Source of the DNA: Patescibacteria group bacterium
Lineage (GTDB): Bacteria; Patescibacteriota; Minisyncoccia; Minisyncoccales; Staskawiczbacteraceae
DNA length: 38,390 nucleotides
Direction: 5' to 3'
NCBI GenBank assembly: GCA_018895235.1
Contig: JAHIOM010000028.1
Coordinates: 1 to 38,390 of the forward strand
Shown piece after piece: positions 1,771 through 29,799 of this stretch. Position numbers and translations under genes: made by a program. The stretch's first letter is position 1. The number at the start of each line of letters is the position of its first letter. The notes under the pieces are model-generated. The model ran no database searches. It worked only from the letters and a program-made list of their open reading frames with translations, and was not told where the DNA came from.

Positions 1771-2054
1771 GATTCGAACCTACAACCCACGCCTTACACT
1801 TATCCCCGTGTTACCACTGGGGGTGGACTATATCATCACCCATTAAGGGTGCGAGGCGCTTCGGCTGATAAATTATCAACCTACTCCTAAAAAGGATAGT
1901 CTCTACACCTTCCCCGCCATCGGCGGGGCTTGGCTCGGGATTATCCCGTTATCAACGGGACTTCCCCGAGTTCACCTCGTTTTCCATCCCGCATTACTGC
2001 GGGAGGCTGCGTATTTATTCACAGGGCGTCGCTCTACCATTGAGCTACTGCGGA
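1759..2054 (-). tRNA. tRNA-Asn(GUU), split by a group I intron
   Basis: The 5' exon is 2021-2054 (34 nt) and the 3' exon is 1759-1796 (38 nt). Joined, they give a standard 72-nt cloverleaf: acceptor TCCGCAG/CTGCGGA, D-arm GCTC/GAGC, anticodon stem ACGCC/GGCGT with loop CTGTTAA (anticodon GTT), T-arm GTAGG-TTCGAAT-CCTAC and discriminator G. CCA is not encoded. Without removal of the intervening 224 nt no anticodon loop can form. The apparent GTG read across the 5' splice site (His) is a false anticodon. The 3' end is shared with the inverted repeat and recombinase gene, so this tRNA is probably also an integration target. Confidence 0.88.
1797..2020 (-). ncRNA. Group I intron (IC3-like) in tRNA-Asn
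   Basis: The 224-nt intron sits between anticodon positions 35 and 36. The 5' exon ends in U and the intron ends in G, as group I splicing requires. A GCAG guide near the intron start can pair with exon CUGU, giving the U-G wobble at the splice site. Core elements are recognisable: a P2-like hairpin (CCCGCAG...), a Q-like AATCCCGAGCCAAG, an R-like GTAGAGACTATC and an S-like GATATAGTCC, close to the tRNA introns of cyanobacteria and proteobacteria. It encodes no protein. Subgroup assignment is from motif likeness only. Confidence 0.85.
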
Positions 2055-2069
2055 ATATTTATTTTTGTA

Positions 2070-2101
2070 AGAACCATGCCTCGCTAACGCTCGGCAGAAC
2101 C
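2070..2101. repeat. Short palindrome flanked by AGAACC direct repeats (copy 1)
   Basis: AGAACC, a 20-nt partly palindromic core (GCC...GGC) and a second AGAACC followed by TTGA. A second, shorter example stands at 29968-29990 with the same flanks and the same following TTGA. This looks like a tiny inserted palindrome with duplicated flanks. Confidence 0.4.
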
Positions 2102-2218
2102 TTGAATGTTTGCCTCTCAATATTCGAAAAGCCATTGTCTAAGAATTGCTCTAAGGCCGTAATGGTTTATTCCTTTAAATAATATTCCTTATTTAATAAT
2201 AAATCAATAATCTTTCTT

Positions 2219-3643: not shown

Positions 3644-5469
3644 AATTGCTTACTTAAATTATTAAAATCAGCCATCAGATTATTAATTTTTTCTAAATTT
3701 TTCTCGTTCTCTGCTTTTTTAATTTCTTCTGAAATCTCTTTTAGTTTGTTTTTTAGCTCAATTAATTTCAACTCGGTTAGACAAAGCTGGATTTCTTCTT
3801 CGGCATCTTCATCATATTCAACTTCTGCCCTTAAAGAAAGGGCTGCCAGAAAGTTCTTCAAATCTTCATCGGCATCTGATGTTTTATACTTTGCAGAAAA
3901 ATCAGCCACAATCTTTTTAAAATCCTTATTTTCGCTTTTTAGCGTTTTTTCTTCAAATACGAATTTCTTAACATCCTCTAAAAACTTTTTCACTTTCTCA
4001 GAAAAAAGAGGAAGATGCTGAACGTTGATTAAATCCAAAATCTCGGGGTCTTTAAGAATAAGGGAGATGATCTTTTCTTCTAAAATCTTTTTTCTACCCT
4101 CTGATTTGATAAAACCGGCAGCCGCTGTTAAAACAATGGGTTTTTCTTCTACTTCATTATTAAAGACGGAAACAGATTCAGTTTTTACTTTTTTCAACTC
4201 TTCTAAAATAACATCTTCTCTGACCGATAAAGTTGAAGATAGTTTTTGGACCCAGAAGGATTGTTCAATTTTGTTTGGTATTCTTTTAATAACCGGCAAT
4301 AATATTTTCCCGATCTCCTTTTTCCCTTCGGGCGTGTTTTTGTCATAACTTGAAAGAGCGGAATCAAAATAAAAATCGAGGATGGAACGAGCCTCTTTAA
4401 CTGCCTTTTCCCAGTTTGCCGGGTTTTCTAAAATCACATCTGCCGGATCAGAATTTGCTGCTGACCGCTTGATTATCTTAATGCCAAAACCCTGTCCTTG
4501 AGCCAAATCAATTCCCCTTTTGGTGGCGCTGTCTCCGGCAATATCCATATCAAAGGCCAAAACAAGATTCTCGCTGTACCTTTTAAGAATATTCAAGTGG
4601 TAGGACGTTAGGGCGGTTCCTGAAACCGCAACCGTATTTTCAAAACCGGCTTGGTGGGCCATAATTACATCTGTATAGCCCTCTGTAATTACGCATTGCG
4701 CCTGTTTTCTTATTACAACCTTGCTATAATTCAAACCGTAAAGAGTTTGGCTTTTGTCATAAAGAAGAGTTTGGGGCGTATTGATATATTTGGCAATTTC
4801 TTCTTCGCCTTGAACTTTTTTAAAAACTCTGGCGCCAAAACCAATCACTTGAGAATTCAAATCGAAAACAGGAAACATAATCCTTCCTCTAAATCTGTCG
4901 TAGAATCCTTGGGATTTTTCCGACTTTATCGCTAATCCCGCCTTTTCTATTTCTTCCCGGTCATAACCCTTTGAAACCAAAAAATCAGAAAGACCCTGCC
5001 AAACCTCGGGGCTATAACCCAATCTCCATTTTTTAATACTTTCTTCTTTAATACCTCGGGAAAGAAGGTATTTTTTTGCCTCCTGGCCAACAACGCTGGA
5101 TTTAAGCTGGGCTTCAAAAAAAAGACAAGCTAGCTCGCAAATTTCATAAAGCCGTTGTCTGGCTGTTCTTAATTCCGGGTCTTGTTTTTTTAGTTCTATT
5201 CCGGCTTTCTGGGCTAAAATCCTCAAAGCGTCCCCAAACTCAACGCCTTCAATTTGTTTTATAAAACCAAAAATGTCTCCTCCCAAACCGCAACCAAAAC
5301 AATGCCAGATTTGGCGGGCTGGTGATACAAAAAAAGAGGGCTTCTTCTCGGAGTGAAATGGGCAAACTCCCCTGTGGTTAGCTCCTGCCTTCTTGAGTTT
5401 GATATAACCTCCGATTACCTCTACAATGTTTAGCCGGTTTTTGATTTCCTCGACTTGAGAATTAAACAT
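3640..5469 (-). CDS. dnaG: DNA primase DnaG
   Basis: The 609-residue primase makes RNA primers for replication. An N-terminal CHC2 zinc-binding domain has Cys36, His39, Cys57 and Cys60. The Toprim catalytic core has EGYTD (Glu263) and DMD (Asp307, Asp309) for metal binding. The C-terminal third is acidic and helical, fitting a DnaB-binding region. Length is normal. The gene starts at ATG 5469, only about 8 nt after the predicted transcription start, so it has a very short leader. It is followed by rpoD with an ATGA overlap. Confidence 0.96.
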
Positions 5470-8385: not shown

Positions 8386-9141
8386 TCATATTTTCTCTTC
8401 TTTAATTTCTTTTATGTCGGCTTCGTCGATAATGCGCAATACATCGCGGGCAATATCGCGACTGAAGTGTTTACCGAATATAGAAAGATTATCCAATTGT
8501 TTAATGAGTATAATAACCAAAAATACAGATGTAGCAAAAATAATTTTAAGCATATTGACCCAAAATAAATCAGTTTCTAGAAAATGGAACGAAATAATAG
8601 TTAAACCGGCAAAAATATAGACCAAAATCCACTGGAATATGAGTAAGCGTTGCTGACAGGCGGCAATAATCTTTTTACGGTTTCCTTGAAGCGCTTGAAT
8701 TACGCCCCAGATACCGTCAAACAGATTATTGTTCTTCACGAGGTCTGCTTCCTCGTCGGTTACACTTCCCATAGATTTGGTTAACCTCGTTATGGTTGTT
8801 GAGGGATGGAATTCATTGTATGCCCAGTCGTTGTTATCAAGAATTCTAGTATAATGCGCTCTAATAATTTCTCGCATCTCCGACTGTATTCTCGGAAGAA
8901 GATTGAAAACTCTGTACAAAGTTGAATAGAGACCGTCTCGTTCTGCGATGATATCAATTATTTTGTTATAACGGTCATTCTGCCTAGCAATAAAAAAACC
9001 GGAGAAAAGAGCAAAAAAGAAAACACTCGCAACTATTAATTGCGACGCAAAGTCCAACGATATGTTCAACTTCACCTTGAAGATAAAAACAGAGCAAAGA
9101 ATTATAAAGCTTATAATTAGTAATGCACTTGATTTGTTCAT
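8386..9141 (-). CDS. Four-TM membrane protein, unknown function
   Basis: 251 residues. Two hydrophobic segments lie near the N-terminus (about 6-23 and 32-52), then a ~100-residue soluble helical region (about 55-160) with charged residues, then two more segments (about 172-190 and 198-215) and a cytoplasmic tail ending KEIKEEKI. The layout of two TM pairs around a helical domain resembles bestrophin-like or DUF4239-type channels, but no diagnostic motif is visible, so this is only a suggestion. It is transcribed away from the tRNA remnant at 9257 and separated from it by the terminator at 9197-9222. Confidence 0.7.
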   Translation of the reverse strand: MNKSSALLIISFIILCSVFIFKVKLNISLDFASQLIVASVFFFALFSGFFIARQNDRYNKIIDIIAERDGLYSTLYRVFNLLPRIQSEMREIIRAHYTRILDNNDWAYNEFHPSTTITRLTKSMGSVTDEEADLVKNNNLFDGIWGVIQALQGNRKKIIAACQQRLLIFQWILVYIFAGLTIISFHFLETDLFWVNMLKIIFATSVFLVIILIKQLDNLSIFGKHFSRDIARDVLRIIDEADIKEIKEEKI

Positions 9142-9196
9142 AGTTTATTTTATTAAAATTTATCTAAAACCTTTGTTCTATTATACTAATATACCA

Positions 9197-9222
9197 AAAA
9201 ATTGCCCTGTTTGGCAATTTTT
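9197..9222. terminator. Rho-independent terminator
   Basis: A 10-bp stem (9197-9206 with 9213-9222) with loop CTGTTT, with A-rich and T-rich flanks on either side. On the minus strand it would end transcripts coming from the EamA gene and tRNA remnant. Confidence 0.65.
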
Positions 9223-9255
9223 AAGTATCTCGGTCTTCGATAAAAAATGCTGTCT

Positions 9256-9281
9256 GCGGAGGAGGTGGGACTCGAACCCAC
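9256..9281 (-). repeat. tRNA-Ser 3'-end direct repeat (left copy)
   Basis: Twenty-six bases identical to 10427-10452, the T-arm and acceptor end of the intact tRNA-Ser. The two copies bracket the EamA gene in the same orientation, the usual mark of integration at a tRNA 3' end or of tRNA gene duplication. Confidence 0.75.
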
Positions 9282-9312
9282 GAGACCATTTCGGGTCAAA
9301 TAGCAGACCTAA
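9257..9312 (-). pseudogene. 3' half of a class II tRNA (Ser/Leu type), 5' half missing
   Basis: On the minus strand one sees a variable arm GACC-CGAAAT-GGTC, T-arm GTGGG-TTCGAGT-CCCAC, acceptor strand CTCCTCC and discriminator G. The last three match the tRNA-Ser at 10428-10511, but the variable arm differs. No matching 5' acceptor (GGAGGAG) or D-arm lies upstream. That position is the end of the EamA gene. The TTAGG near 9310 might be the edge of an anticodon loop of Leu type, but the discriminator G favours Ser. It is best read as a broken tRNA or attachment-site remnant. Confidence 0.6.
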
Positions 9313-9321
9313 GAAAGACGC

Positions 9322-10239
9322 CTATCCCATCGTTATATTAAAAGCCAGGAAAGTAAGGCCAAACCCTATAAACAGTATTGCAAGCAGTTTCTGGAAAATA
9401 ACCTTCCTGGAAATTTTCTCTTCCAGAGCCTTCGGGAACCTAAAAGAAATCAGAGTTGCCAGAACAAATAGAAAGGCGTACTGCAGGCCCTGAAGGGCGT
9501 TTATTATCGGAAGATAAGCAAGACCCACTAGAGCAATAGCCCAGTTTTGCATAATAAAAGCCCCTGCTCCCACCCCTTGGTTGAGAATAAAAAAAATCCC
9601 TGTCTTCTTGCTAAAAGCGGAAGCCCCGGAAAAAATCTCTCTTCTGACTTCTTTGAAAAAAATGAAAAGCAGAGCTGTCATAAAGACGCCGATTCTTATC
9701 CAAATAAAGCCGGTCCAAAACGGCAGTATTAAATAAACATACTTTGTTAAAACAAAGCTCAGAGCAAAAAGAAAGGCCGCAATAACCGAAATCCGCAAGC
9801 TGTCAAAGGAAACTTTCTTTGATGGATTATAGGTAACCAAAACACTTCCCAAAACAAGGGGAATAAAAGCTAATATTTCTTTAAGGCCAAGGGCCTCTTT
9901 CCCTTCAGAAAAAAGGTAAATTAGCGCAAGGCTGAATAAAGGCAGAAATCCTCCAACAGCCGGAATTATCCTGGAGGCTTCAAAGCGTTCCAGCCCGGAA
10001 AAAAGACCCAGTAAAGCAAAAACAAATATTACTCCTGTTAACAGACACAAAATCATTTGCAAAATACCGGGAACAAAAAATCCGACAAACGGTATTAGGA
10101 CTAAAACCAAAATCCCCAAAACCCCTCCGTAGAAGACGTATATCTTTGGATTAGGCGGTCCGGACAGAATATACTTATCTCCCAAAGAGACAAGAGCAAA
10201 AAGGAAATAGGCTAAGATGATGATTATTAACCAGAACAT
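9322..10239 (-). CDS. EamA/DMT-superfamily transporter
   Basis: The 305-residue protein is almost all hydrophobic, with about ten predicted membrane segments in two halves. The second half contains the EamA-like pattern ending FVLATLISFRFPKALEEKISRKVIFQKLLAILFIGFGLTFLAF. Drug/metabolite exporters of this superfamily move small solutes across the inner membrane; the substrate cannot be told. It is flanked on both sides by pieces of tRNA 3' ends (9256-9312 and 10252-10452) and its last codons replace the 5' half of the broken tRNA. That suggests it came in, or was moved, through recombination at tRNA genes. Confidence 0.82.
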   Translation of the reverse strand: MFWLIIIILAYFLFALVSLGDKYILSGPPNPKIYVFYGGVLGILVLVLIPFVGFFVPGILQMILCLLTGVIFVFALLGLFSGLERFEASRIIPAVGGFLPLFSLALIYLFSEGKEALGLKEILAFIPLVLGSVLVTYNPSKKVSFDSLRISVIAAFLFALSFVLTKYVYLILPFWTGFIWIRIGVFMTALLFIFFKEVRREIFSGASAFSKKTGIFFILNQGVGAGAFIMQNWAIALVGLAYLPIINALQGLQYAFLFVLATLISFRFPKALEEKISRKVIFQKLLAILFIGFGLTFLAFNITMG

Positions 10240-10251
10240 AATGATTGGCGG

Positions 10252-10383
10252 AAGGGGTGGGACTCCACTTTGTTAGAACCCGTCGCTCGTCTCTCGCTCC
10301 TTCAAAACCCTCAGTTTTGAATAATTTCCTACACTGGGGAATACCCAATTCCCCCGACCCCTTTTGTGGGGTTTGAATCCCAC
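10252..10383. other. Degenerate tRNA-like 3' ends and hairpins
   Basis: At 10252-10275 the minus strand reads like a damaged tRNA 3' end (...GTCCCACCCCTTCCGCCA). At 10366-10383 a T-arm-like GTGGGGTTTGAATCCCAC stands on the plus strand. A GGGGAAT/ATTCCCC hairpin lies at 10336-10354. None forms a full cloverleaf. Together with the repeats at 9256 and 10427 they mark this patch as a site of repeated tRNA-directed recombination. Confidence 0.35.
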
Positions 10384-10426
10384 CATATTCCTAATTTTAA
10401 CCCAATTCTGAGTTAAAATTATGAAA

Positions 10427-10452
10427 GCGGAGGAGGTGGGACTCGAACCCAC
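10427..10452 (-). repeat. tRNA-Ser 3'-end direct repeat (right copy)
   Basis: The partner of 9256-9281, here within the intact tRNA. The distance between copies is about 1.17 kb and holds only the EamA gene and tRNA fragments. No recombinase is encoded between them. Confidence 0.75.
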
Positions 10453-10511
10453 AAGCCCTTGCGGGCGCACGCTTTCCAAGCGTGTTCCTTACCAATTCGG
10501 AGCACTCCTCC
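10428..10511 (-). tRNA. tRNA-Ser(GGA)
   Basis: A complete 84-nt class II tRNA: acceptor GGAGGAG/CTCCTCC, anticodon loop TTGGAAA in a CACGC/GCGTG stem (anticodon GGA), variable arm GCCC-GCAA-GGGC, T-arm GTGGG-TTCGAGT-CCCAC and discriminator G. CCA is not encoded. The first 23 nt are also the 3' coding end of the LAGLIDADG gene upstream. An AT-rich 9-bp hairpin (10393-10420) follows. Confidence 0.95.
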
Positions 10512-11532
10512 TAGTACGATACTTTTCTTTTTTAATTTTTCTGAGCCTATTTGCATGATATATATTTGTAAATCCTACTTCTTTTGTATATCTGCAAACT
10601 TCTGATTCTCTATAAAGATTTACTCCATTCGCAAAAATTTTGGGATGAAAGTTTAAATTTTTTAGCGTCCTATATACAAATTTTAAAATTGGGGTTGATT
10701 TATTGGAAAAATTTATACCCATATTTAAACAATTGCATCCATTAACCCTGTGCTTATGGATATAAATACATCCATCCGTATCAATTAGCCCGCGAAGGCA
10801 ATATTTCGAAAAATTTTTGTTTGCTTTAATCCAATCTGGGACATCTATTTGTTGCTTCACTTTATTCCCCCTCTTTAAACCTTTATTTATTAGGAAATTT
10901 ATAAAGGAAGTACTTGAAACTGTTATTACTCCAACATTTTTGCGGCTTCCATGATTAGAAAAATATACAGCAGGATTTATATCAAACAAACGCTTTATTA
11001 AGTCGCACACAATTAAAATATATTCTTTAGAATCTTTTTTATGTAAGGTTATTGTTGCTTGTGTATAACTGCTAATCCCGCCGTCACCCAACATAATACC
11101 AATAAATTCTGCTAGATCAGAACTATTTTTCGGATCAGAAATAATCTTAGGCAAATTACAATTCGGATAAAGTTCAGGGAAAAGTCTCCTTTTTTCTTGC
11201 GAAACTAGCCCACCCTTTCTTCGTCCTTCAGGTGTCCCGGGCCCGCCATATTTCTTGGCAATAGCGAGTCCTCCTTTTTTGCCAGCTTTGAATGTGCTCC
11301 AAAAATCAGGTAAAATCTTATATTCAGGCGCTTTAACTTTTCCTTTTGCTAACTTTAAAAAAATCCTAAAAGCATTCTCTGAAATAGTAGATTTTGCTTT
11401 CCGCCAATCTAAAATAGTTCTAGAACATACTTCTGCGTATTCACCTAAAGTCTCCCAGCCCAACCCTGCCTCATAATAAAGGCTGTTAAAAAATTCAATT
11501 TGATCTTTCTTTTTAATCTTTACTCGTGGCAT
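10489..11532 (-). CDS. LAGLIDADG homing endonuclease-like protein with N-terminal DNA-binding part
   Basis: 347 residues. The N-terminal third looks like a helix-turn-helix region (about 15-62, with TILDWRKAKSTISENAFRIF), then a Gly/Lys-rich linker (about 84-115, KKGGLAIAKKYGGPGTPEGRRKGG) as in NUMOD-type tails. Two LAGLIDADG helices follow, AEFIGIMLGDGG (about 141-152) and LRGLIDTDGCIYI (about 246-258), each with the acidic residue that binds catalytic metal. A monomeric two-motif enzyme cuts one long asymmetric DNA site. It is free-standing, not inside an intron or intein. Its last seven codons (RRSAPNW) are tRNA-Ser sequence, so it directly abuts and overlaps the tRNA. The TATAAT box 8 nt before the ATG predicts a leaderless mRNA. 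Confidence 0.88.
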   Translation of the reverse strand: MPRVKIKKKDQIEFFNSLYYEAGLGWETLGEYAEVCSRTILDWRKAKSTISENAFRIFLKLAKGKVKAPEYKILPDFWSTFKAGKKGGLAIAKKYGGPGTPEGRRKGGLVSQEKRRLFPELYPNCNLPKIISDPKNSSDLAEFIGIMLGDGGISSYTQATITLHKKDSKEYILIVCDLIKRLFDINPAVYFSNHGSRKNVGVITVSSTSFINFLINKGLKRGNKVKQQIDVPDWIKANKNFSKYCLRGLIDTDGCIYIHKHRVNGCNCLNMGINFSNKSTPILKFVYRTLKNLNFHPKIFANGVNLYRESEVCRYTKEVGFTNIYHANRLRKIKKEKYRTRRSAPNW

Positions 11533-11540
11533 ACGTTTTT

Positions 11541-11549
11541 ATTATACCA
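11541..11549 (-). promoter_or_regulatory. Extended -10 promoter of the LAGLIDADG gene
   Basis: TGG-TATAAT with the hexamer ending 8 nt before the ATG at 11532. The -35 region is weak. The predicted transcript starts at or within two bases of the start codon. Confidence 0.5.
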
Positions 11550-11583
11550 CATTTCATTTATCAGCTAAAGCACCCTTCTCAAT

Positions 11584-12036
11584 TTAATCATTTATTTTAC
11601 CGCCCTGACAAGTTAGCTCATAGACTCTTTCTCCTTTATAAAATATTGTTTCAATGTGTTGGAAATAATCCAAATCACCTCCACCAACATTCAAATATTT
11701 AAAATCGCCTTCTTCAAATTTTTCAGGACCCCGTAATGGGATTAATTTGTTAGGTTTTAACAATGCTTTCTTTAAAAATTTATATATTTCCTCCACGCCT
11801 GCAACATCTTTCAAAACTTTTCCACAGTAATTCATAACCCACACCACTTTTCCGTTTTTCCATACAACTTCTTGCCCAACAAATGGATCATACCCGAAAT
11901 ATCTGTCTTTGTATTTCCATTCTCCATCAGCATATTCAAACTCCCTTACGCCATCCTCAAACTTTTTTTCCGTATCTTCTTTTTCGGCAACATAAGTGTT
12001 CTTTTTCGCTTTTATTAAAAATTCATTTAACTCCAT
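11584..12036 (-). CDS. DUF5680-domain protein
   Basis: The 150-residue soluble protein matches the DUF5680 pattern: FLIKAKKNTYVAE at the start, then YKDRYFGYDPFVGQEVVWKNGKVVWVMNY in the middle and a C-terminal beta-rich end (FYKGERVYELTCQGG). In other bacteria this domain is found alone or behind helix-turn-helix domains; its function is not established. It is surrounded by unrelated genes, with gaps of about 50 nt to the endonuclease gene and 66 nt to htpX, so it is probably its own unit. Confidence 0.8.
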   Translation of the reverse strand: MELNEFLIKAKKNTYVAEKEDTEKKFEDGVREFEYADGEWKYKDRYFGYDPFVGQEVVWKNGKVVWVMNYCGKVLKDVAGVEEIYKFLKKALLKPNKLIPLRGPEKFEEGDFKYLNVGGGDLDYFQHIETIFYKGERVYELTCQGGKIND

Positions 12037-20027: not shown

Positions 20028-23000
20028 TTATTTTTTAACGGATGCAATTTTTTTATCTCTCATTTTATCGCGATAAAAATTATAAATCAAGAAAACAAAC
20101 ATCAATAGAATAATAATAATTTTCCAATCAAAATATTTTGTTAACCAATTACTACTCTTAAGCTCAATGTTTTCGTGCACGCCAATGCCATTTTTAACCT
20201 CAAACTCATTGCTATAGTAAGTTGTATATCCCCAGGCTTCAACTTTTAGATAATAATTTCCTTCGGGCACCAAGAAAGAATATCTGCCCGTAACATCGGT
20301 TGTTTGCGGGTTTGCCTGCTGATATCTTTTTGCCGACCAAAGTTCATATAATTTTGTCTCCGGGTTCAACCAATATAAAGTGACCTTAGCGTTGCTAACT
20401 CTTATTTGCCCTTCTGGTTTTTGGTAATAAATATACCCTTCCGGGTCAACAACAACAATTAAACTCATTTGGGTCGGTTTTAATCTTTGGTCCTCATAAT
20501 CAGTTACTGTTACAATTTCGTATTCTCCATCAACAGCCGGAGAGATTATGTCCGCTGTCCAGATACCGTCTCCATCCGGGTCAGAATAATCAAATTCTTG
20601 GACAACCAATCGCTCTTCAGTATTAACCGGTTCTTCTCTAATATTCACAGGAATTAACGAGGCAGTGGCTAATTTTGGAGTAATTTCAATTGAAGCTCTT
20701 GGCTCTTTCTTTTTGAAAAGCAGATAACCCTTAATTGCTTTGGCTGGTTTATCCGGCTTAACAATAAGTTGAAGCGATTTGTTGGAAATCACCTCTATTT
20801 TTTGCTGCGGCTCGCCCTGTCGGTCAACATAAAGATTGGCATTCTGGTCAATCAAACCGTTGCCTGTTCTGGCAAAAACAATTTCAGAAGGTATTTTCAT
20901 TTTTGCCTCGCTGGTTAATTGTCCCAAAAGAACTCCCTCGGGAAGAACGCGCCCTGCCTCCAAATCAGCGGAAGACAAACCAACCACTTCGGTTAACCCG
21001 GGCAAGATTAAATTAGTTCCCACCAACTTGCTAACATCTGTTGCTCTGGAAACGCCGATATCTTTAAATGTTTGTTCCAACTGCGGTAATTTTTGAGCAA
21101 GGGCGTTTAATTTTCTCGGCATCGGACCTAAAACAAAACTTTTCAATTGTCCCACCGGCAAAATTTCCGTTTGTTTTTTGAGCGCAAATGGCGTTTCTTT
21201 TTTAACAACTTCTTCTATCGGGGGGAATTCTATTTTTGACGTTTCTTTCGGCTTTATAATTTCCGCAATTTTTTCAGTTATTTTTTCTATACCTTCAACA
21301 ACTTTTCCCGGCAATTTAGTTATTTTTTCAACCGCCTTACCCGGTATTTCAACTATCTGTTGAACAATTGCTTTTTTCCCTAAATAAATTGTGTCAAAAA
21401 CAACTTCTGACCCTTGGCCCCAAGCAGTAAAAAACTTAACATAAACTGTTTTATCTCCATCGCCCCCTGGCAGAACCCATTGTTTTGTAGTTTGATATAA
21501 CTCCTGGACCGCGTTTATAAAATCGGGGTTGTTAGATATTGCCACTCTGGCAGTATCTGAACCTGCTTTTAAAAGAAGGGTGACAACTGGAGTTTCCGTA
21601 TTTGAATCATTATTGTTTATAAAAACAGAAAAACCTCCGGTTGGAATAGAGGGGACGCTGTAGGCGCCCGAAGGCAATCCTCCGCCACCACAACCACTGG
21701 TAGTTTTGCTAACCCCATCAGTAAAGCCGGTCTCTACGCTATCCCCATTCCTGGCTTTAATTCTAAATGTGTATGATGTGCCGCAGGTCAGGCCGGACGA
21801 TGTCCAAAAGAGCGCTGTGAGCCAGCCCGAGTTGGTAGAATTGGTTGTGTTTTCAATATAGTATTCGGTACCTGTGGGGTTGGAGTTAGCTGTCCAAGTA
21901 GCAGTTATCTGAGAAGTAGAATCAGCAGTCAGGGTTGGGGTGGTGGGAGCATTGGCTAAGGTGTATTTAGTTGAAGTCGAAGAATATTCAGAGGTGTTAC
22001 TCAAAGAATCCTTGGCTCTGACCTTGTAGGTATATTGTGTGTTTATGGATAATCCCGTGTCTACAAAAGTAGTGGACGATTGCCAATCGCTTGAAGACCC
22101 GCCTGTATTAGTTGATGTTTCTTCAAATTGGTAAGACAAAGTAGCTAGACCACTGGGGTCAGTCGCTGTTTGAGCTGTAATTGTCAGTTGAGAGGTGGAA
22201 TCAGCTGTGATTGATGAAATCCCGACATTGGTTGGTGCGGTGGTATCGGTCTCAATCACAATGTCTTTGTTGGCGGCGAGGTTGGTGGTCGGGACGAAAT
22301 TGGTCATTGAATTTCCCGCTTGGTCTGCAATGGTTCCTGAAATACTGGAAACGGTTAAATCAGAACTGGCGTCTCCATTTTGAACAGTGTAATTGCAGGT
22401 TCCTGTTGTGGCGCTGGAAACAGTAAAAGTACAAGTTCTGTCAGTGTCTCCTGTTTCCAAAGTAACTGTCACATTCCCAGTTGAAGTTACTGCTTCTGAA
22501 AAGGTTACATCAATGTCAATTACTTCATCTGCTCCATAGGTTCCATTGGTTTTATCTGAACTGACGCTAGTAATAGTAGGAGCTGTTGTGTCCCAAACTA
22601 AAGTGAAATCATCTGAAGTAGAGTTGGTGGCATTGTCAGCTGCGGTAAATCGGATAACATATGTGCCGTCTGTATTAGCGCTGATGGTTGTGCCTAGTGC
22701 GGTGGCAGAACCAAAAGTGATTGTTCCAGGACCTGATACTTTTGACCACTGGTAAGAAGAAGCATTAATCTCGCTGCCTGCATCAGTGGCAGTGGCGGTC
22801 TGGGTAAATTGAGTTTTCTTTGTCTGGTCTGTGCCTGCGTTGACAGTGGGGTTGGTTTTATCAATCTTAACTATCTTTGAAACAGTTGTCTGGGTATTAC
22901 CAGCATTATCTTTGGAGCCGTATCTGAAATATGTTGTTCCTTCAGTGATAATTTGGACTGGTGTTGTATAACTAGTTCCTGTAGATGGGTTGCAGGTGTT

Positions 23001-24485
23001 GACTGCGTCAGTGCAGTATTTCGTCCACTCGCAGCCAGACACATCGCAGTTTGGAGTTAGAGTGATTGTTTGATTGCTTGTTTGCCAAACATTGTTTTTT
23101 GCGCCGTAATCATCTGCGGTTGTCGGCGCTGTGGTATCTATTGTAAAAGAAGTAACAGATAACCAATTAGAACCATTGCCTACTGCGTCAGTAACCTTAA
23201 CTTGACAATTGCTGTGGACTCCATCGCCAAGAGTATTAAAAGTAATGGTGTTATTCCCTGCTGTGGCTGAAGTTGTGGCAGAAGAACAATCTCCCTGATA
23301 AGATATTGTGCCTGCTTCGTCAGATGAAAAAGTATAGTTAGGGGTGCTATCATTTGCAGGGGTGGGAACTGCTGTAATTTCGGCAAGAGCTGGCGCTGTT
23401 GAATCAACCGTGTATGTTGTTGTTCTTTCTGTTGAATAATCTGTTCCATCGTAGGCGCGACAATAAACTGTGCGCGTTGTGTCGCCGGTTGAAACATTGT
23501 AAGTGCAGGTCATTGAGGAATACGGGCTTGCGTAGCTGGCGTTGGCTTGCGAGCACAGAGTGTTTGCCGAGGTAGCTGTGCCTGTTTCGTTGCAGTAATA
23601 ATATAACGCGTCGCTTTCAGCGTCTCCCTGCCCTGTTGGAGTAATTGTTATTTGGCTTCCTCCTTTTATCGGGTCGGGGGAATCTGAAACGTTCGTTAAA
23701 GTTGGCGCGGTGTTACTCAAAAAAGCCACAATTATTGAATCTAAAACAGGGGTGTCTGTTCCGTCGGAAGCAAACGACATTTTGTAGTAAAAATTAGCGC
23801 TGGTCCAGCCGAGCCCGGACAAACTAATAGTATTCGCTCCAGCAGAAAGAGTGTCTGAGTTGTTTAAAACGCCCGCCGAACTATACCAATTTGTATTATT
23901 CTGGCTAAACTGGCAAGTCAAACCAGTGCCAGACGGAATATCGGTGGCAGTATAGCCAAAAGAAGTTATACTGGAAACTGTTTGGCCAGAAAGCAAATTG
24001 GTTGAGGTTAAAGAACCGGTAGTATAATAGGTGTTTGTCGTAGAAAAAGTATCAATAAGATTTAATGTTATTGATTTCAAAACAGGAGTGTCAGTGCCAT
24101 CTGAAGTAAATAATATTTTATAATAAAAATACCCTGTTTGCCATTTAAGAGCGGACAAATCAATTGTGTGCGTCCCGGAAGAAAGGGTGTTTAGGGCATT
24201 AACAGTTCCCGCTGAATCATACCAATTAATGTTGTCTTTGCTGAATTGTATTTTTAATCCTGTGCCGGCTGGAATGGCAGTAACGTTATATGTAAAACTG
24301 TGTATTATTGAAGCGCCTGCGGCTGAAAGAAGATTTTTTGAAATTAAAATACCTTCTGTGTTATAAGCCAATGCTTTGCCAGGAAAAAACCAAAAACCAG
24401 CCAAAATTATAGCAGTAAGTAAGACAACTTTTTTTATTTTTCCATTAACTTCTTGTTTCCTAAGTTTTTGAACAGATTTTATCAT
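20028..24485 (-). CDS. Giant surface protein with Ig-like/FN3 domains, membrane-anchored
   Basis: About 1,485 residues from ATG 24485 (MIKSVQKLRKQE); the frame opens 18 codons earlier. A signal sequence (GKIKKVVLLTAIILAGFWFFPGKALA) comes first. Two tandem ~100-residue beta domains follow, each with LLS...GTGL..QFS..N..WY and SDGTDTPVL, then several Ig-like/Big-type domains rich in Thr and Asp (VDSTAP, IDTTAPT repeats), one or two FN3-like domains, a Gly-rich hinge (GCGGGGLPSG), and a C-terminal carboxypeptidase-regulatory-like domain (TDVTGRYSFLVPEGNYYLKVEAWGYTTYY). A C-terminal membrane helix and basic tail anchor it. An adhesin or contact protein is plausible. The start overlaps the RT stop by 26 nt. 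It lacks any VR copy. Confidence 0.85.
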   Translation of the reverse strand: MIKSVQKLRKQEVNGKIKKVVLLTAIILAGFWFFPGKALAYNTEGILISKNLLSAAGASIIHSFTYNVTAIPAGTGLKIQFSKDNINWYDSAGTVNALNTLSSGTHTIDLSALKWQTGYFYYKILFTSDGTDTPVLKSITLNLIDTFSTTNTYYTTGSLTSTNLLSGQTVSSITSFGYTATDIPSGTGLTCQFSQNNTNWYSSAGVLNNSDTLSAGANTISLSGLGWTSANFYYKMSFASDGTDTPVLDSIIVAFLSNTAPTLTNVSDSPDPIKGGSQITITPTGQGDAESDALYYYCNETGTATSANTLCSQANASYASPYSSMTCTYNVSTGDTTRTVYCRAYDGTDYSTERTTTYTVDSTAPALAEITAVPTPANDSTPNYTFSSDEAGTISYQGDCSSATTSATAGNNTITFNTLGDGVHSNCQVKVTDAVGNGSNWLSVTSFTIDTTAPTTADDYGAKNNVWQTSNQTITLTPNCDVSGCEWTKYCTDAVNTCNPSTGTSYTTPVQIITEGTTYFRYGSKDNAGNTQTTVSKIVKIDKTNPTVNAGTDQTKKTQFTQTATATDAGSEINASSYQWSKVSGPGTITFGSATALGTTISANTDGTYVIRFTAADNATNSTSDDFTLVWDTTAPTITSVSSDKTNGTYGADEVIDIDVTFSEAVTSTGNVTVTLETGDTDRTCTFTVSSATTGTCNYTVQNGDASSDLTVSSISGTIADQAGNSMTNFVPTTNLAANKDIVIETDTTAPTNVGISSITADSTSQLTITAQTATDPSGLATLSYQFEETSTNTGGSSSDWQSSTTFVDTGLSINTQYTYKVRAKDSLSNTSEYSSTSTKYTLANAPTTPTLTADSTSQITATWTANSNPTGTEYYIENTTNSTNSGWLTALFWTSSGLTCGTSYTFRIKARNGDSVETGFTDGVSKTTSGCGGGGLPSGAYSVPSIPTGGFSVFINNNDSNTETPVVTLLLKAGSDTARVAISNNPDFINAVQELYQTTKQWVLPGGDGDKTVYVKFFTAWGQGSEVVFDTIYLGKKAIVQQIVEIPGKAVEKITKLPGKVVEGIEKITEKIAEIIKPKETSKIEFPPIEEVVKKETPFALKKQTEILPVGQLKSFVLGPMPRKLNALAQKLPQLEQTFKDIGVSRATDVSKLVGTNLILPGLTEVVGLSSADLEAGRVLPEGVLLGQLTSEAKMKIPSEIVFARTGNGLIDQNANLYVDRQGEPQQKIEVISNKSLQLIVKPDKPAKAIKGYLLFKKKEPRASIEITPKLATASLIPVNIREEPVNTEERLVVQEFDYSDPDGDGIWTADIISPAVDGEYEIVTVTDYEDQRLKPTQMSLIVVVDPEGYIYYQKPEGQIRVSNAKVTLYWLNPETKLYELWSAKRYQQANPQTTDVTGRYSFLVPEGNYYLKVEAWGYTTYYSNEFEVKNGIGVHENIELKSSNWLTKYFDWKIIIILLMFVFLIYNFYRDKMRDKKIASVKK

Positions 24486-25644
24486 AATTGCCAACAGTGT
24501 AAATATAAGGATAAAAACGCGGCAAAAGGCATTTAACAAGCATTTTTTTCCGCAATTTATAAGTATTATAATGCTTCATCATTCCCAAATAAGAATTTAC
24601 GCTTGCTAAAAATTTTCCAAACTCGTCTTTTGATAATTTACGTCTCTTTTCTGAAAGAAATTTATTCCAGTATTGAATTTTTTTATAAAAATTACCTTTT
24701 ATTTGATTCCGAATATAAGTGCGATATGGTTTTATTATTGTCCCGAGAAAAGCCACTCCTTTGGAAAAATGCTGAAGATATATTTTGTTAGGATGAATCT
24801 CCAGCAAAAAATTTCTTTTCAGATAATCTCTTAAAATAGGAATGAGAAATCTTGTGGACTTCTTATTTTGATAAACAATAACTAAATCATCCACATACCT
24901 GCAATAATATCTACAGAAAAGTTTATTTTTAATAAAATGGTCAAAGTCGTTAAGATAAATATTCCCAAACAACTGCGATGTCAGATTGCCGATGGGCAAC
25001 CCCTTATTTTCTCCGGCATAAAATAAACTTTTGGATTTCGGCAGGCCCTGCCAGTCTTCTCTTTTTCCTTTTGTGCGGCAATTTTTTGTATGGTCGTGAA
25101 ATATAATTTTACGGATAAGCCGTAATATAAAATCAACATCAAAATCGGTTGTTTCTCTAAAACGATCTAATGTTTCTTCAACTTTTTTATATAAAATATG
25201 CTTATCCATAGACATAAAATATCCCTTTATATCTAATTTAAGAATGTAACAATCCTTTTTATAATTATCAGAGCAAGAACGAATAAAACGATCTGTCCGT
25301 TTAATGCCGCAAGAAGTTCCTCTGCCGACTCGACAGCTATATGTGTCATTAATAAATAATCGTTCAAAATACGGATTGATATAATTATAAATTAAATGAT
25401 GGACAATCCTGTCGCGGAAGCCAGCGGCAAAAATTTCTCGTTTTGTCGGCTTAAAAGAAATAAAACAAATACTTGGACTAATTTCATATTTTTCACTTTT
25501 AATCTCTTCATAAAGTTCAAAAAGTTTTGATTCATAATCTATTTCAAAAGCCAGCACATTTATAGTGGAACGTTTATTTTTTCTGGCATCATAGTACGCT
25601 TGGAACAAATCATATAAAAGTTGTCTTCCAAAAAAAGTGTTCAT
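24460..25644 (-). CDS. DGR reverse transcriptase
   Basis: The 394-residue RT is of the diversity-generating retroelement type. Motifs in order: KLDIKGYF with catalytic Asp138, GLPIGNLTSQLFGNIYLN (about 215-232) with the DGR-type IGxxxSQ at 218-224 in place of the QGxxxSP of group II introns and retrons, and YVDD at 250-253 with the catalytic Asp pair. A thumb-like region follows. No maturase or endonuclease domain is present, as expected. It copies the template RNA with errors at adenines, and the cDNA replaces the VR. The start codon is 30 nt past the TR. It is the last DGR gene, and its 3' end overlaps the giant surface protein gene. Confidence 0.95.
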   Translation of the reverse strand: MNTFFGRQLLYDLFQAYYDARKNKRSTINVLAFEIDYESKLFELYEEIKSEKYEISPSICFISFKPTKREIFAAGFRDRIVHHLIYNYINPYFERLFINDTYSCRVGRGTSCGIKRTDRFIRSCSDNYKKDCYILKLDIKGYFMSMDKHILYKKVEETLDRFRETTDFDVDFILRLIRKIIFHDHTKNCRTKGKREDWQGLPKSKSLFYAGENKGLPIGNLTSQLFGNIYLNDFDHFIKNKLFCRYYCRYVDDLVIVYQNKKSTRFLIPILRDYLKRNFLLEIHPNKIYLQHFSKGVAFLGTIIKPYRTYIRNQIKGNFYKKIQYWNKFLSEKRRKLSKDEFGKFLASVNSYLGMMKHYNTYKLRKKMLVKCLLPRFYPYIYTVGNYDKICSKT

Positions 25645-26042
25645 AATTCAAGGTTTATAGTAAAGGGCTGATACCAGTTCTTGAGGCAGCGGACCGAAAA
25701 GCCGTTTGCCTTATCGTTGGTGTTGCGGTTGACCGTCGCGTTGCCAGAATTCAATTTGCGATTCCAAGCGCTAGTACCACTCTGCAAAGATGTCCAGAAG
25801 TTCCCGTTGGAAGAAAGATTGTTGAACGACCCATCGGTATTGCGGTTGCCAGCTAAAAAATAATGGCCGTTTAATTTCTCATATTTTCTTTAAGCAGAAA
25901 ATATGAAATTGCTTTTTGCAAATATACCTTGCCAAATTGGCAAGAAGACCATTGAACTGATAAATAAGCGCGCTCGCTTAGGCCGCCCCAGTTAGATAAT
26001 AAACATCTAACGGGGTAAATAACCATAAGCGATTCTGGCCCT
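25645..26042 (-). ncRNA. DGR template RNA region (leader + TR)
   Basis: The 398 nt between the Avd-like gene and the RT gene hold no credible protein. The part before the TR (25859-26042) has three stems: an 11-bp stem with one bulge (25986-26015, CCCC-A-GTTAGAT with ATCTAAC-GGGG), CTTGCC/GGCAAG (25928-25944), and a 10-bp AT-rich stem just before the TR (25880-25889 with 25896-25905). In the well-studied Bordetella phage DGR, sequence flanking the TR is needed for cDNA priming; these stems may do the same here. Confidence 0.7.
25675..25858 (-). repeat. DGR template repeat (TR)
   Basis: 184 bp, aligned without gaps to the VR at 26451-26634. Read in the frame of the target protein, the TR is full of AAC/AAT codons: 14 Asn, of which 13 are changed in the VR. 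The last 31 nt on the coding side (25675-25705) are identical in both copies, and the TR reads TGG where the target gene has its TGA stop. Confidence 0.97.
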
Positions 26043-26384
26043 TTATTTTTGCGACTTTTCCCAAGCAGTAAGTTGTTTGGAAACACTCTCGACCTTTTCG
26101 TTGATATCTACAAACCTTTTCAATCCCACCTGCCCCAAATCTCTTGTTAATCTAAAAAACATTCTAATTGTTTCAATTTTTTCTCTTGCTTTTTCAATAT
26201 ATGGTCTTTTGGAAAAACTGGAATTGGCTCTATAAATATTAGTTATCATTTCCATTGCCTCCCTTTTTATATTCTCGCCCAAAGTGTATTTATACTCCCG
26301 GTTAAAATCTTTTATCGCTCTAAATATATCAATCAAAAGATCATAACTGGCTTTGTATACTGGGAGATGATTATATGTGGCCAT
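26043..26384 (-). CDS. avd: Avd-like DGR accessory protein (four-helix bundle)
   Basis: The 113-residue all-helical protein belongs to the four-helix-bundle group that includes Avd and the 23S rRNA intervening-sequence proteins (YKASYDLLIDIFRAIKDFNREYKYTLGENIKREAMEMITNIYRAN pattern, then PYIEKAREKIETIRMFFRLTRDLG). In DGRs, Avd forms a basic pentamer that binds the RT and the template RNA and is needed for mutagenic copying. Its place between VR and TR, 65 nt after the target stop, is the standard order. By sequence alone it cannot be told from an rRNA intervening-sequence protein, but the setting decides it. Confidence 0.9.
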   Translation of the reverse strand: MATYNHLPVYKASYDLLIDIFRAIKDFNREYKYTLGENIKREAMEMITNIYRANSSFSKRPYIEKAREKIETIRMFFRLTRDLGQVGLKRFVDINEKVESVSKQLTAWEKSQK

Positions 26385-26411
26385 AATTTTGAATAGTCAA
26401 ATAGCCGAATA

Positions 26412-26448
26412 CACATTGAAATTGCGGCGAAGCCGCAATTTCAATGTG
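26412..26448. promoter_or_regulatory. Hairpin/cruciform just past the VR (DGR target-site element)
   Basis: A perfect 17-bp inverted repeat (26412-26428 with 26432-26448) with a three-base GAA loop, 2 nt past the VR end. The plus-strand tip is GCGAAGC, a known very stable DNA mini-hairpin. Hairpins a few bases past the VR are required for efficient retrohoming in Bordetella phage BPP-1. There is no T-run, so it is not a typical terminator, and the TR has no such hairpin. Confidence 0.8.
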
Positions 26449-26449
26449 A

Positions 26450-28798
26450 TCAGTTCTTGAGGCAGCGGACCGAAAAGCCGTAGGCCTTATCGAAGGTGCC
26501 GCGGTAGACCGACGCGCCGCCAGAACTCAATTTGCGATACCAAGCGCTAGTCCCACTCTGCAAAGATGTCCAGAAGTACCCGTAGGAAGAAAGATAGAAG
26601 AACGACCCACCGGTACCGCGGTCGCCAGCTAAAAGACCGGAGAAATGCGTGGAATCAACGGTCTTTAATGTTGTTCCTTCGTTGGTGCCGCGCCAGCCAG
26701 TAGTACTGGCGTCGTATGGAAAATCCGTGGCGCAGGTTCCTGATGTGCAGACAGTCAATTCTAATGTGGTGTACTCGTCGTGGGTTGGAATATGCCAGCC
26801 GGTTGGGCAGATGCCTTGAGCTCCGGCTGTTGTTGAACCGCACATTGCCTGATTCCATTGGTATAACCCCCCGTTTGAGGTGCAGTTTGCTTCGGTATCT
26901 GAATAACAATATTTTTGGATTGAAGCGCAACTGGTGCCTTGTGTGTTTGCTCCGGCGGTCAGTGTTCCCACATTGATATTTTGACGCATCCAGCACTGGC
27001 TTCCAATTAAAACAGTTGAATAGGTTTTAGCATCCCTTGAATCAACTAAAGTATTGCCGCAAACCCAGGAAGAGCTGGCGGACAAAGAAACCGTTCCGCC
27101 TGTCGTATCTACGGTAAGATTTGTGCTATCGGCGATTTTAGTTGTATCGGCAAAGTTATCCGTAATGGTTGCGGGGGTTGGGTCAACAATCCAATCAATA
27201 TCAACATTACCAATAATCTTTAAATCAAAGACATCTGTGGGTGTTTGTAGGTTGGTGAGATATACTTTGTAAATGTTTTCTTGGTCTATGTTTTCAAAGG
27301 CGGTAATCAGCTGGTCGCTGTTTTCCTGATAAACCTCTACTCTGACGCTTTCACTCGGATTTGTTGGTTTGGCATAGAGGGTAATGTCATTTTGGTTGGT
27401 GAGGATTTGTTGGAAAGTAATTCTGACGTAGTAGTTGTTTTCTATAGTTACCCAAACATTGTCTTGGGCCTGTACTTGGTCGTAGATGTCTTCAATAATA
27501 TTTCTGTCTTGGTCTAACTTGAACGCCTTGGAGATAAAAATGATATTAAATATCTGCTCTGATAAATGAGGCACTGTCCACTCTACATAATCAAGCTTGC
27601 CATTGTTGTTAAGGTCATAGGCATTGAATTGCACATCCTGATTATTGTTGTTCTGCCACTTGATTTTTATCTTGTTTTCCTGACCTACCTTGAAAATTTC
27701 GGGAATGGTGGTGTAGGCCAAAACATTTGTGTATTCAAATTCATCCGGAGCGGAAACAGCGACTAATTTTCCTGTGTCTGTTTCCTGCTCTGTAATTTCC
27801 GGCACCGGGGTCTCGTATTCTATGGCTATATAATCGCTGACTTCCGGAGCAAGAGCAACTTCTTCTGCGGGCGGAGTGACCTCTTCTTCTGGTTGCGAAG
27901 GAATAATCTCTTCCGCTGGAGAGGGTGGAGTTTCTTCTACCGGCGGTTGTTCTTCTATTACCGGTTGGTCAGACGGCGACACTGTTTCTAATATATCCAC
28001 ATTTTCTATTGGAAGCTCTTGGAGGGTCGGACCTTCCAAGGGCACTTCCGCTGAAGGCGGAGTAATTTCTTCTGTCGGAGGAGCTATTTCTTCTATTGGT
28101 TGGGGACTAGTTTCTTCTACCGGCTGAACTGGTTCCTCTTGCGCCGGCGGGACAGATTCTTCGGGCTGAATAAAGGGAGTTAGGTCAACAAACTTATTGT
28201 CTTTTGTTTCAATAATTTTAACTTCGGCTTGTTTTTGTTCTTCTTTTTCTGCTTTTTTCTCTTCTTTAATTTCTTCTTTCTCTTCTTTGAATATTTCTTT
28301 AATTTGGTCAGCAGCGTTTTCAAGGCTGGCGGTTAAAGAGTGCCAGGCCATGACTAGGATGTTTGGTTTTTGGGTCTTGGGCTGGATAAGGGTGGCCAGC
28401 AGTTCCTTTCTTTTTTCCTGGGTCAATGTTTCAGGCTTTTCTTTTACGACGCTGAGAGCGGCTTGGCCTGTTTTGATGGTGATGTTTTGGGCGTCTTTGG
28501 GAAGCTCCAAATATCTTTTATCCTTCTGAATAGCGCTGGCAGTCACAACCTTTACCCATTTAACCGGCTGGCCGGCTATGATTATGTTTTGTTTGATTGC
28601 AACCTCTTTGATAATCTGGTCTTGGGGTATTTGGGGCCTGAAAATTCCAGCTTGGACTCCCAGCAAAACAAGAACGACAAAAACCAAAAAAGAAAAAAAG
28701 AGCCGTAGCTCTTCTTTTTTAAGTTTTCTTAAAACAAACTCTTTTACAAGATTGGCGGGAATGGAAATTTTCTTTGTAAATTTATTTTTTTCTTCCAT
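26450..28798 (-). CDS. DGR target: membrane-anchored display protein with variable Fib_succ_major (C-type-lectin-like) domain
   Basis: 782 residues. A basic N-terminus and one membrane helix (about 33-51) give a signal-anchor. Then come a helical region (about 55-150), a Lys/Glu-rich stretch (about 165-195), a long Pro/Glu-rich stalk (about 210-330, repeated PxEE), a beta-rich part (about 340-560), and a C-terminal domain from about 580 with CWMRQN, GGLYQWNQAM, CPTGWHIPT and FSVRCLKN-stop, matching the Fibrobacter succinogenes major paralogous domain, a formylglycine-enzyme/C-type-lectin relative. The VR encodes residues from about 722 to the end. Variable sites are mostly Tyr, Gly, Phe and Ser, as in binding surfaces. 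The stalk would hold the variable tip away from the cell. Confidence 0.92.
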   Translation of the reverse strand: MEEKNKFTKKISIPANLVKEFVLRKLKKEELRLFFSFLVFVVLVLLGVQAGIFRPQIPQDQIIKEVAIKQNIIIAGQPVKWVKVVTASAIQKDKRYLELPKDAQNITIKTGQAALSVVKEKPETLTQEKRKELLATLIQPKTQKPNILVMAWHSLTASLENAADQIKEIFKEEKEEIKEEKKAEKEEQKQAEVKIIETKDNKFVDLTPFIQPEESVPPAQEEPVQPVEETSPQPIEEIAPPTEEITPPSAEVPLEGPTLQELPIENVDILETVSPSDQPVIEEQPPVEETPPSPAEEIIPSQPEEEVTPPAEEVALAPEVSDYIAIEYETPVPEITEQETDTGKLVAVSAPDEFEYTNVLAYTTIPEIFKVGQENKIKIKWQNNNNQDVQFNAYDLNNNGKLDYVEWTVPHLSEQIFNIIFISKAFKLDQDRNIIEDIYDQVQAQDNVWVTIENNYYVRITFQQILTNQNDITLYAKPTNPSESVRVEVYQENSDQLITAFENIDQENIYKVYLTNLQTPTDVFDLKIIGNVDIDWIVDPTPATITDNFADTTKIADSTNLTVDTTGGTVSLSASSSWVCGNTLVDSRDAKTYSTVLIGSQCWMRQNINVGTLTAGANTQGTSCASIQKYCYSDTEANCTSNGGLYQWNQAMCGSTTAGAQGICPTGWHIPTHDEYTTLELTVCTSGTCATDFPYDASTTGWRGTNEGTTLKTVDSTHFSGLLAGDRGTGGSFFYLSSYGYFWTSLQSGTSAWYRKLSSGGASVYRGTFDKAYGFSVRCLKN
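26451..26634 (-). repeat. DGR variable repeat (VR)
   Basis: The partner of the TR at 25675-25858. There are 22 differences in 184 bp; 21 fall where the TR coding strand has A, and one is T to G (26552, silent). They change 15 residues: 13 Asn, one Asp and one Thr in the TR become Tyr, Gly, Phe, Ser or Asp in the VR. The 31 bp next to the stop codon are unchanged (26451-26481), the likely initiation site for mutagenic homing. Confidence 0.97.
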
Positions 28799-28910: not shown

Positions 28911-29531
28911 TCATCCTAATTTAATTTTTTTTATCTCTTCTTCAAAAAATTCATGAAGCTGCTGTTTTGAAACAGATTCTTTCAAAAAATTTATTCTCAT
29001 TTCTCTTACATCCTGTAGATAAATTAACTGTTCTAAAAACAATCTGCCATTAAACTCATCTTTGTATTTTTTCTCGGCAATACTGATTATACCATTCAAA
29101 TCAATGTATTTATCTTTTAAAATAAAATACAAATCAATATAATCTTTTAAACTCGGCCTTCTTCCTAAAACATTGGCTTTCATAGCCGCTATTTCAGAAA
29201 TTTTTAAAATATTCACGCCCTGATAATTTATAAATCCAAGAATAGGCGGAAAAAGATATTTAACAAAATCTATTTTTATTTTATCAATTTTTACGGTAAG
29301 TTGATTTGAATTATTAATAACAACAGAAATTTTATAATCTTTAAAAACTTTTTCTACTTTATCTAAAAAATTTGGAGAAATCTTTTTATTAGAAAACAAA
29401 TCAAAATCAACAGAAACTCTATGCCCTATTTGTAATGCTAAAGCGGTTCCGCCCACCAAATAAAAACCGCGGAATTCTTTAAGTTTCTGGAATACTTTTT
29501 GCCTCTTTGATCCGATGGCTTCGAGATACAT
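28911..29531 (-). CDS. AbiEii/AbiGii-type nucleotidyltransferase (toxin-like)
   Basis: The 206-residue protein carries the minimal nucleotidyltransferase signature: YLVGGTALAL (about 24-33), then GHRVSVDFDLF with Asp42 and Asp44 that bind metal, and a third acidic site further on. Family members include AbiEii-type toxins, which modify tRNA or other targets with nucleotides, as well as proteins of unknown role. It overlaps the upstream small gene by 53 nt, the coupling typical of toxin-antitoxin pairs. Length is on the short side for the family. Toxicity is inferred from family and context only. Confidence 0.85.
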   Translation of the reverse strand: MYLEAIGSKRQKVFQKLKEFRGFYLVGGTALALQIGHRVSVDFDLFSNKKISPNFLDKVEKVFKDYKISVVINNSNQLTVKIDKIKIDFVKYLFPPILGFINYQGVNILKISEIAAMKANVLGRRPSLKDYIDLYFILKDKYIDLNGIISIAEKKYKDEFNGRLFLEQLIYLQDVREMRINFLKESVSKQQLHEFFEEEIKKIKLG

Positions 29532-29799
29532 ATTTTAATTTATTTATTTTGAGAAGAAGCGACACTAACTTCAGCGCTCTTTCGCGAAAAGCGCTAATCG
29601 GAATATTTTCAATTATTTCTTTAGATTTTTCTCTGCCGTAATATTTAAAAAGCCACTGCCAATGTCGCCAATCGCCATAATTTATTACTTGAATTATTAT
29701 TTCCTCTTCATTTTCTTGAATGTTAAGCTTTGAAAAATCGCAATACCAAAAAAGCGGTTTGAAAAACTGAGGAAGTGTTTTTTTTTCAGCGGAAACCAT
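29479..29799 (-). CDS. DUF6922-like partner of the AbiEii protein (putative antitoxin)
   Basis: The 106-residue protein has the pattern LFWYCDFSKLNIQENEEEIIIQVINYGDWRHWQWLFKYYG, as in DUF6922-type proteins that precede AbiEii nucleotidyltransferases in Bacteroidetes and CPR genomes. It is first in the pair, and its 3' end overlaps the toxin-like gene by 53 nt. An antitoxin or regulatory role is the usual reading. Upstream, a TATAAT (29847-29852) and an inverted repeat (29861-29876) offer a promoter with a possible operator. Confidence 0.7.
   Translation of the reverse strand: MVSAEKKTLPQFFKPLFWYCDFSKLNIQENEEEIIIQVINYGDWRHWQWLFKYYGREKSKEIIENIPISAFRERALKLVSLLLKINKLKYVSRSHRIKEAKSIPET

Follow-up and report, generated by a model that had tools for sequence, protein, structure and literature searches.

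A diversity-generating retroelement in a Staskawiczbacteria relative, with a predicted docking RNA on the 5′ side of its template repeat

Knowledge of the mechanism of diversity-generating retroelements (DGRs) rests largely on one phage element, in which docking and priming RNA lies 3′ of the template. In BPP-1, the spacer 3′ of the template repeat (TR) folds, recruits reverse transcriptase (RT) and Avd, and supplies the priming adenine (PMC12875486). The locus described here raises the question of where such an RNA would lie when the spacing is different. In BPP-1 (AY029185) avd abuts the TR, and a 144-nt structured spacer, matched by the Rfam family Phage_DGR (RF03022), stands 3′ of it, whereas here 184 nt separate avd from the TR, 30 nt separate the TR from the RT gene, and the structure is on the 5′ side. 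Avd, TR, a DGR-type RT, adenine-specific differences between TR and variable repeat (VR), and a target gene that ends in the VR are common to both.

The window, the whole stretch of 38,390 nucleotides that was analysed, lies on contig C27 of an 837-kb, 40-contig genome of a Staskawiczbacteria relative (CPR). On its minus strand, at 24460-28798, target gene, VR, an inverted repeat, avd, the 184-nt spacer, TR, the 30-nt gap and the RT gene follow one another, and all DGR reading frames are open. The original prediction of a complete DGR in this order and range on one strand, with no part broken, was thus borne out. Other genes of the window, such as uvrA-like and groEL-like ORFs, have a chromosomal look by eye. 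Judged from its sequence, the cassette is an intact chromosomal DGR with nothing visibly broken. As had also been stated, its class is not new: DGRs of CPR bacteria are already on record (Roux et al. 2021, PMC8144416), and this complete one adds a member to them.

Several neighbouring features were recorded. A predicted surface protein of 1503 aa (20028-24539), with PKD, OmpL47-like and Fn3-like stretches, starts where the RT gene ends and has the same orientation; a search with the TR as query found no VR in it. Directly upstream of the DGR target, genes for an AbiEii-type nucleotidyltransferase and a DUF6922 protein (28911-29799) are perhaps a toxin–antitoxin pair. A group I intron (1804-2137, minus strand; Rfam 73.5 bits) adjoins a large serine recombinase gene (274-1770), and a LAGLIDADG homing-endonuclease-like ORF (11532-10489) overlaps with its end a tRNA-Ser gene (10511-10427).

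The RT (394 aa; 24460..25644, minus strand) matches the family RVT_1 (E 7.9e-16). Among PDB entries it is closest to the BPP-1 DGR RT 8ub7 (E 2.1e-30; others 5e-6 or weaker). The DGR-type IGxxxSQ and YVDD motifs that had been claimed are both present, as LPIGNLTSQ and YVDD, and are invariant among relatives. Placement in a DGR RT tree had been proposed as a check. We built a tree from 88 RTs, with group II intron RTs as the root; the enzyme falls inside the DGR RTs, split from the group II RTs at support 100. Its neighbours are copies from Staskawiczbacteria, Falkowbacteria and Peribacteria, in an RT clade of mixed phyla. Relatives of this RT are encoded in 26 of 36 genomes of the same family, many of which have several. 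By profile search, the avd gene (26043..26384, minus strand; 113 aa) matches bAvd above the cut-off (E 6.5e-12) and the PHROG 'Avd protein of DGR', and scores 52.7 bits against NCBIfam DivGenRetAVD, under its cut-off of 80.

TR (25858-25675) and VR (26634-26451) are 184 nt each on the minus strand and 88% identical. The TR has an adenine at 21 of their 22 mismatches: 11 are A>T, 9 A>G and 1 A>C. With 48 adenines among the 184 sites, the binomial probability of at least 21 in 22 is about 9e-12. Moreover, 20 of the 21 adenine changes affect codon positions 1-2, mostly those of AAY codons. The sole exception is a synonymous T>G, which points to an ordinary mutation after the last homing event. 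An additional search for extra VRs with the TR as query had been proposed as well; run on this genome, it found none beyond the known one. Between species, the VR of the window differs from that of L042 at 23 of 43 shared TR-adenine sites and 6 of 109 other sites, from L043 at 28 of 39 and 0 of 96, from L062 at 17 of 34 and 0 of 95, and from L064 at 19 of 36 and 1 of 95. Repeated rounds of adenine mutagenesis, all templated by a conserved TR, would produce such a pattern.

The VR forms the last 61 codons of the target gene (26450..28798, minus strand; 782 aa) and ends at its stop codon. Residues 583-782 form a Fib_succ_major/FISUMP domain (Pfam E 1.9e-29; NCBIfam E 2.2e-35), and by this profile the target is C-type-lectin-like. 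AlphaFold prediction of the domain from 7 sequences gave pLDDT 37 and was set aside. A hydrophobic segment (about residues 32-54, by eye) precedes a Pro/Glu-rich linker and then the FISUMP domain, so arranged that the protein is probably membrane-anchored and its surface display plausible. A survey reported that neither membrane segments nor domains could be recognised in targets of the CPR-restricted RT clade (Roux et al. 2021, PMC8144416). The present target is unlike these, with its mixed-phyla RT clade, hydrophobic segment and FISUMP domain. FISUMP targets with Avd have been described in Bacteroides phages (PMC8143477).

Directly after the VR stands an inverted repeat with 17-bp arms and a 3-nt loop (26412..26448). 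The hairpin of the original prediction is therefore present, but its role is doubtful because close relatives have none at the same position. It also does not fit the BPP-1-type pattern published for post-VR hairpins, a 7-10 bp stem with a GRNA loop (PMC3240598). We considered it as a conserved homing element of the clade and rejected this, since in near relatives its place is taken by short direct repeats rich in pyrimidines. Such repeats (for example GACTATTTGACTATTTGACTATTT) follow the VR in many DGRs, and we noted them in L042, L043, L062, L064, L067, L090, L059, L078 and the window, where two pyrimidine-rich units stand after the hairpin at 26411-26391. Across 98 loci, post-VR sequence was more periodic than post-TR sequence (Wilcoxon p 1.6e-4), with strong excess in 9 versus 1.

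Where, then, is the RNA that would serve this element? The sequence between avd and TR, on the 5′ side of the TR, contains a structured RNA of 180 nt (26041-25862) that was absent from the original prediction. All of its parts are on the minus strand. It begins with a core hairpin, P1/P2 (25967..26040), whose loop carries a window-specific insertion of 34 nt (26019-25986). Directly after the hairpin comes a strand that we call the clamp (UAUCAGUUC, 25954..25962), complementary to the TR 3′ junction (GAACUGGUA, 25672..25680). Next is the 5′ strand of P3 (AAUGGUC, 25947..25953), then the hairpins P4 (25927..25945) and P5 (25878..25907), and finally the 3′ strand of P3 (GGCCAUU, 25862..25868), which lies in the 5′ flank of the TR and ends 3 nt before it. 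In an alignment of 8 homologous spacers, including Staskawicz-, Falkow- and Peribacteria copies, five helices comprise 40 pairs, 24 of them changed on both sides; 93.6% of cells are paired, versus 38-53% with the partner slid, and none of 500 shuffles did as well.

The nearest elements with this domain are L042, L043, L062-L065 and L067, from Staskawicz-, Falkow- and Peribacteria and related MAGs (one 8614-base contig bears both the label L042 and the label L061). Their RTs belong to the same clade as that of the window, at 59-71% identity, and they share the order target–avd–TR–RT, the FISUMP target and the 5′ RNA domain. The window differs from them in the 34-nt loop insertion and in its own post-VR inverted repeat. 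In L043, a Staskawiczbacteria DGR, a gene for an NYN-domain protein (3741-4283) stands after a terminator-like hairpin. We also searched 287 genomes of the phylum, under strict filters, with a model of the full 5′ domain (R1); no further genome matched, and in its entirety the domain therefore seems limited to the RT clade of the window.

The core hairpin, clamp and P3 alone seem, from comparison of DGR loci, to be wider than this clade. The hairpin follows the pattern GCCRGA, stem, YAMG-type loop, stem, RGNGNGC, and over 22 sequences 91.2% of cells are paired, with 74 double-change cells versus 23 in shuffled alignments. We searched 138 DGR loci (1.07 Mb) with a 39-position model at E <0.03 and obtained 51 matches, all on the TR strand and 28 of them outside the model set. 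A detected TR lay within 200 nt of 47 of the 51, with the hairpin 5′ of the TR in 44 and 3′ in 3; among all loci with a detected TR, fewer than half gave a match. The hairpin accompanies the TRs of DGRs in many phyla and in phages, nearly always on the 5′ side. Among extra records it stands 5′ in a fecal phage contig (L187) and in Bacteroides phage F2 (L188), and 2 nt 3′ of the TR in a Microcystis plasmid DGR (L186). The three 3′-side loci of the search (L078, L080, L082) are one RT clade, adjoining Microcystis. Moreover, the hairpin stays on the TR strand where the TR is opposite to the RT (L158, L166, L171), and stays with the TR where this lies downstream of the RT (L084). By its positions, the hairpin module follows the TR and not the RT.

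Pairing of the clamp with the TR is maintained while its sequence changes. The pair reads CAGTTC/GAACTG in the window, L042 and L043; CAGTCC/GGACTG in L063, L067, L068 and L122, both sides having changed together; and AATCC/GGATT in L072. It is imperfect in L062, L064 and L065, where 5 of 6 positions are kept. We grouped loci into RT clusters at 60% identity and permuted TR ends among loci. For 21 clusters the clamp score was 14.93 in matched loci versus 12.02 (sd 0.54) in permuted ones, a value reached in 0 of 5000 permutations. Control segments gave z from -0.3 to 2.6, and the weak positives among them (z 2.1 and 2.6) perhaps originate from base composition shared within a locus. P3-like helices scored 15.53 versus 11.93 (sd 0.56) in 20 clusters, again with 0 of 5000, and the TR-middle control of this test gave no signal. 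At the level of predicted pairing, these permutations show that clamp and P3 strands match the TR ends locus-specifically across unrelated DGRs.

Folding of the 398-nt RNA of the window without constraints formed the clamp with P 0.70-0.80, stacked directly on P3 (P 0.73-0.92), and forcing P1-P5 raised the clamp to P 0.87-0.99. Twelve other loci were folded likewise. The clamp formed in L063, L067, L068, L072, L087 and L122, and did not form in the isolated RNAs of L042 (P 0.09), L062, L064, L065 and L085; folding of L043 was done out of register for the clamp.

We therefore arrive at a reading that we consider probable: an intact DGR with a 5′ docking RNA made of core hairpin, clamp strand and P3 strand in this order, in which the TR is looped out, an adenine primes and P3 stops copying. 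Since the clamp pairs with the TR 3′ end and P3 pairs with the TR 5′ flank, the TR would form a loop, some 180 nt long, closed at the clamp/P3 junction where its two ends come together. RT and Avd would bind the core hairpin and copy the TR part of the structured RNA into adenine-mutated cDNA. The clamp strand would lie on the TR like a primer, so that the adjoining 3′ adenine, 25953 or 25952 (two conserved adenines, minus strand), is the expected priming nucleotide, and P3 would probably stop the RT at the other TR end. The copied stretch would then roughly equal the region common to TR and VR, and the junction could determine both the start and the end of copying. The mutated cDNA would replace the VR and thereby diversify the C-terminal FISUMP domain.

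Other functions of the 5′ RNA have to be weighed against this. It might be only a stop for reverse transcription, like the avd end in BPP-1, with priming in a 3′ spacer shared in part with the RT coding sequence. A 5′ termination motif has indeed been described for BPP-1 (PMC12875486), and P3 directly abuts the TR. However, the strand pairing with the TR 3′ end sits in the 5′ domain, locus-specifically. Furthermore, the TR-to-RT distance is 24-35 nt in the window and its near relatives L042 and L062, and in L043 a separate gene, that of the NYN protein, parts the RT from the TR, which together make a BPP-1-like 3′ spacer unlikely. The same hairpin is found 3′ of the TR in L078, L080, L082 and Microcystis, as if a docking module fits either side. 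A role as a stop alone is quite improbable. Even further from our expectation, and very improbable, is a cis-regulatory leader of the RT gene (an attenuator or translation control) outside the template RNA machinery. In the window the RNA does precede the RT gene, in the same orientation, but elsewhere it stays with the TR when the TR is opposite to the RT strand or downstream of the RT, and its strands pair with both TR ends.

A different doubt concerns activity. The cassette might be complete but silent or decaying, with the TR/VR pattern as a record of past events only. The one non-adenine mismatch would agree with this, as would the sister element L042, where 7 of 29 mismatches are at non-adenine sites. 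Against it, the reading frames are all open, the RT motifs are intact, the RNA helices are kept up and 21 of 22 mismatches fall at adenines. We regard silence or decay as unlikely, and the DGR is probably active today.

The relation to described systems can now be stated. A structured spacer 3′ of the TR, the mark of a BPP-1-type template RNA, is missing from the window, and an Rfam search of 25600-26500 gave no match even at E 1, Phage_DGR included. The BPP-1 spacer (Sp) likewise gave no match to the core-hairpin model. Strand 48-54 of Sp (AGGUGGU) can pair with AUCACCU of the TR two nt before A56, a clamp that is not significant alone (114 of 2000 shuffles). A56 is reportedly the priming nucleotide of BPP-1, a result attributed to Handa et al. 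2018. BPP-1 thus resembles the window: in both, the priming adenine, a predicted one in the window, is closely preceded by a strand that can pair with the 3′ end of the TR. Retron msr-msd RNA offers another likeness, with structured RNA 5′ of the copied template and a possible internal 2′-OH priming, but the DGR-type RT, Avd, TR/VR and target gene distinguish the element, which is not a retron.

Full-length matches to the Rfam family RT-7 RNA (RF03028) coincide exactly with the 5′ domain in L042 (48.9 bits) and in Saprospiraceae L072 (52.5 bits), both under the family's gathering score of 116.8, which no locus tested (window, L042, L072) reaches; the window itself has no match at E 1. At gathering scores, Rfam models found only tRNAs on 18 viral loci. 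The Rfam title of RF03028 is only 'RT-7 RNA' and leaves DGRs unnamed, and a text search of open papers returned none naming RT-7 together with DGRs. Provisionally, given incomplete coverage of the literature, we treat the 5′ template-RNA layout as a variant for which no description was found.

A second DGR of the same genome, on contig C10 (L011, G000:C10:30000-48000, 9000-11783), has an RT of a clade made up of CPR genomes. Its parts are the RT gene (10106-9000, minus strand), avd (10117-10446, plus strand), TR (10498-10612) and VR (10906-11020), and 17 of its 19 TR/VR mismatches are at TR adenines. Its target of 294 aa has no Pfam match. The PHROGs matched by the DGR of the window also match this one, and a weak core-hairpin signal stands at the expected place 5′ of its TR.

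How far the proposed layout extends is a matter on which we hold the chances about even. In most DGRs outside the BPP-1/cyanobacterial type, a single unbroken 5′ strand, clamp plus P3, behind a shared docking hairpin may pair with both TR ends, so that the TR is a closed loop, an adenine 5′ of the template primes, and the product is branched as in retrons, RT-7 RNA being a piece of this structure. If many DGRs carry such a 5′ module holding both template ends, this would explain what bounds the mutated region. The priming nucleotide would be predictable in many uncharacterised DGRs, and the orphan Rfam RT-7 family would gain a likely role. Such a module would also offer a compact layout for targeted-mutagenesis tools.
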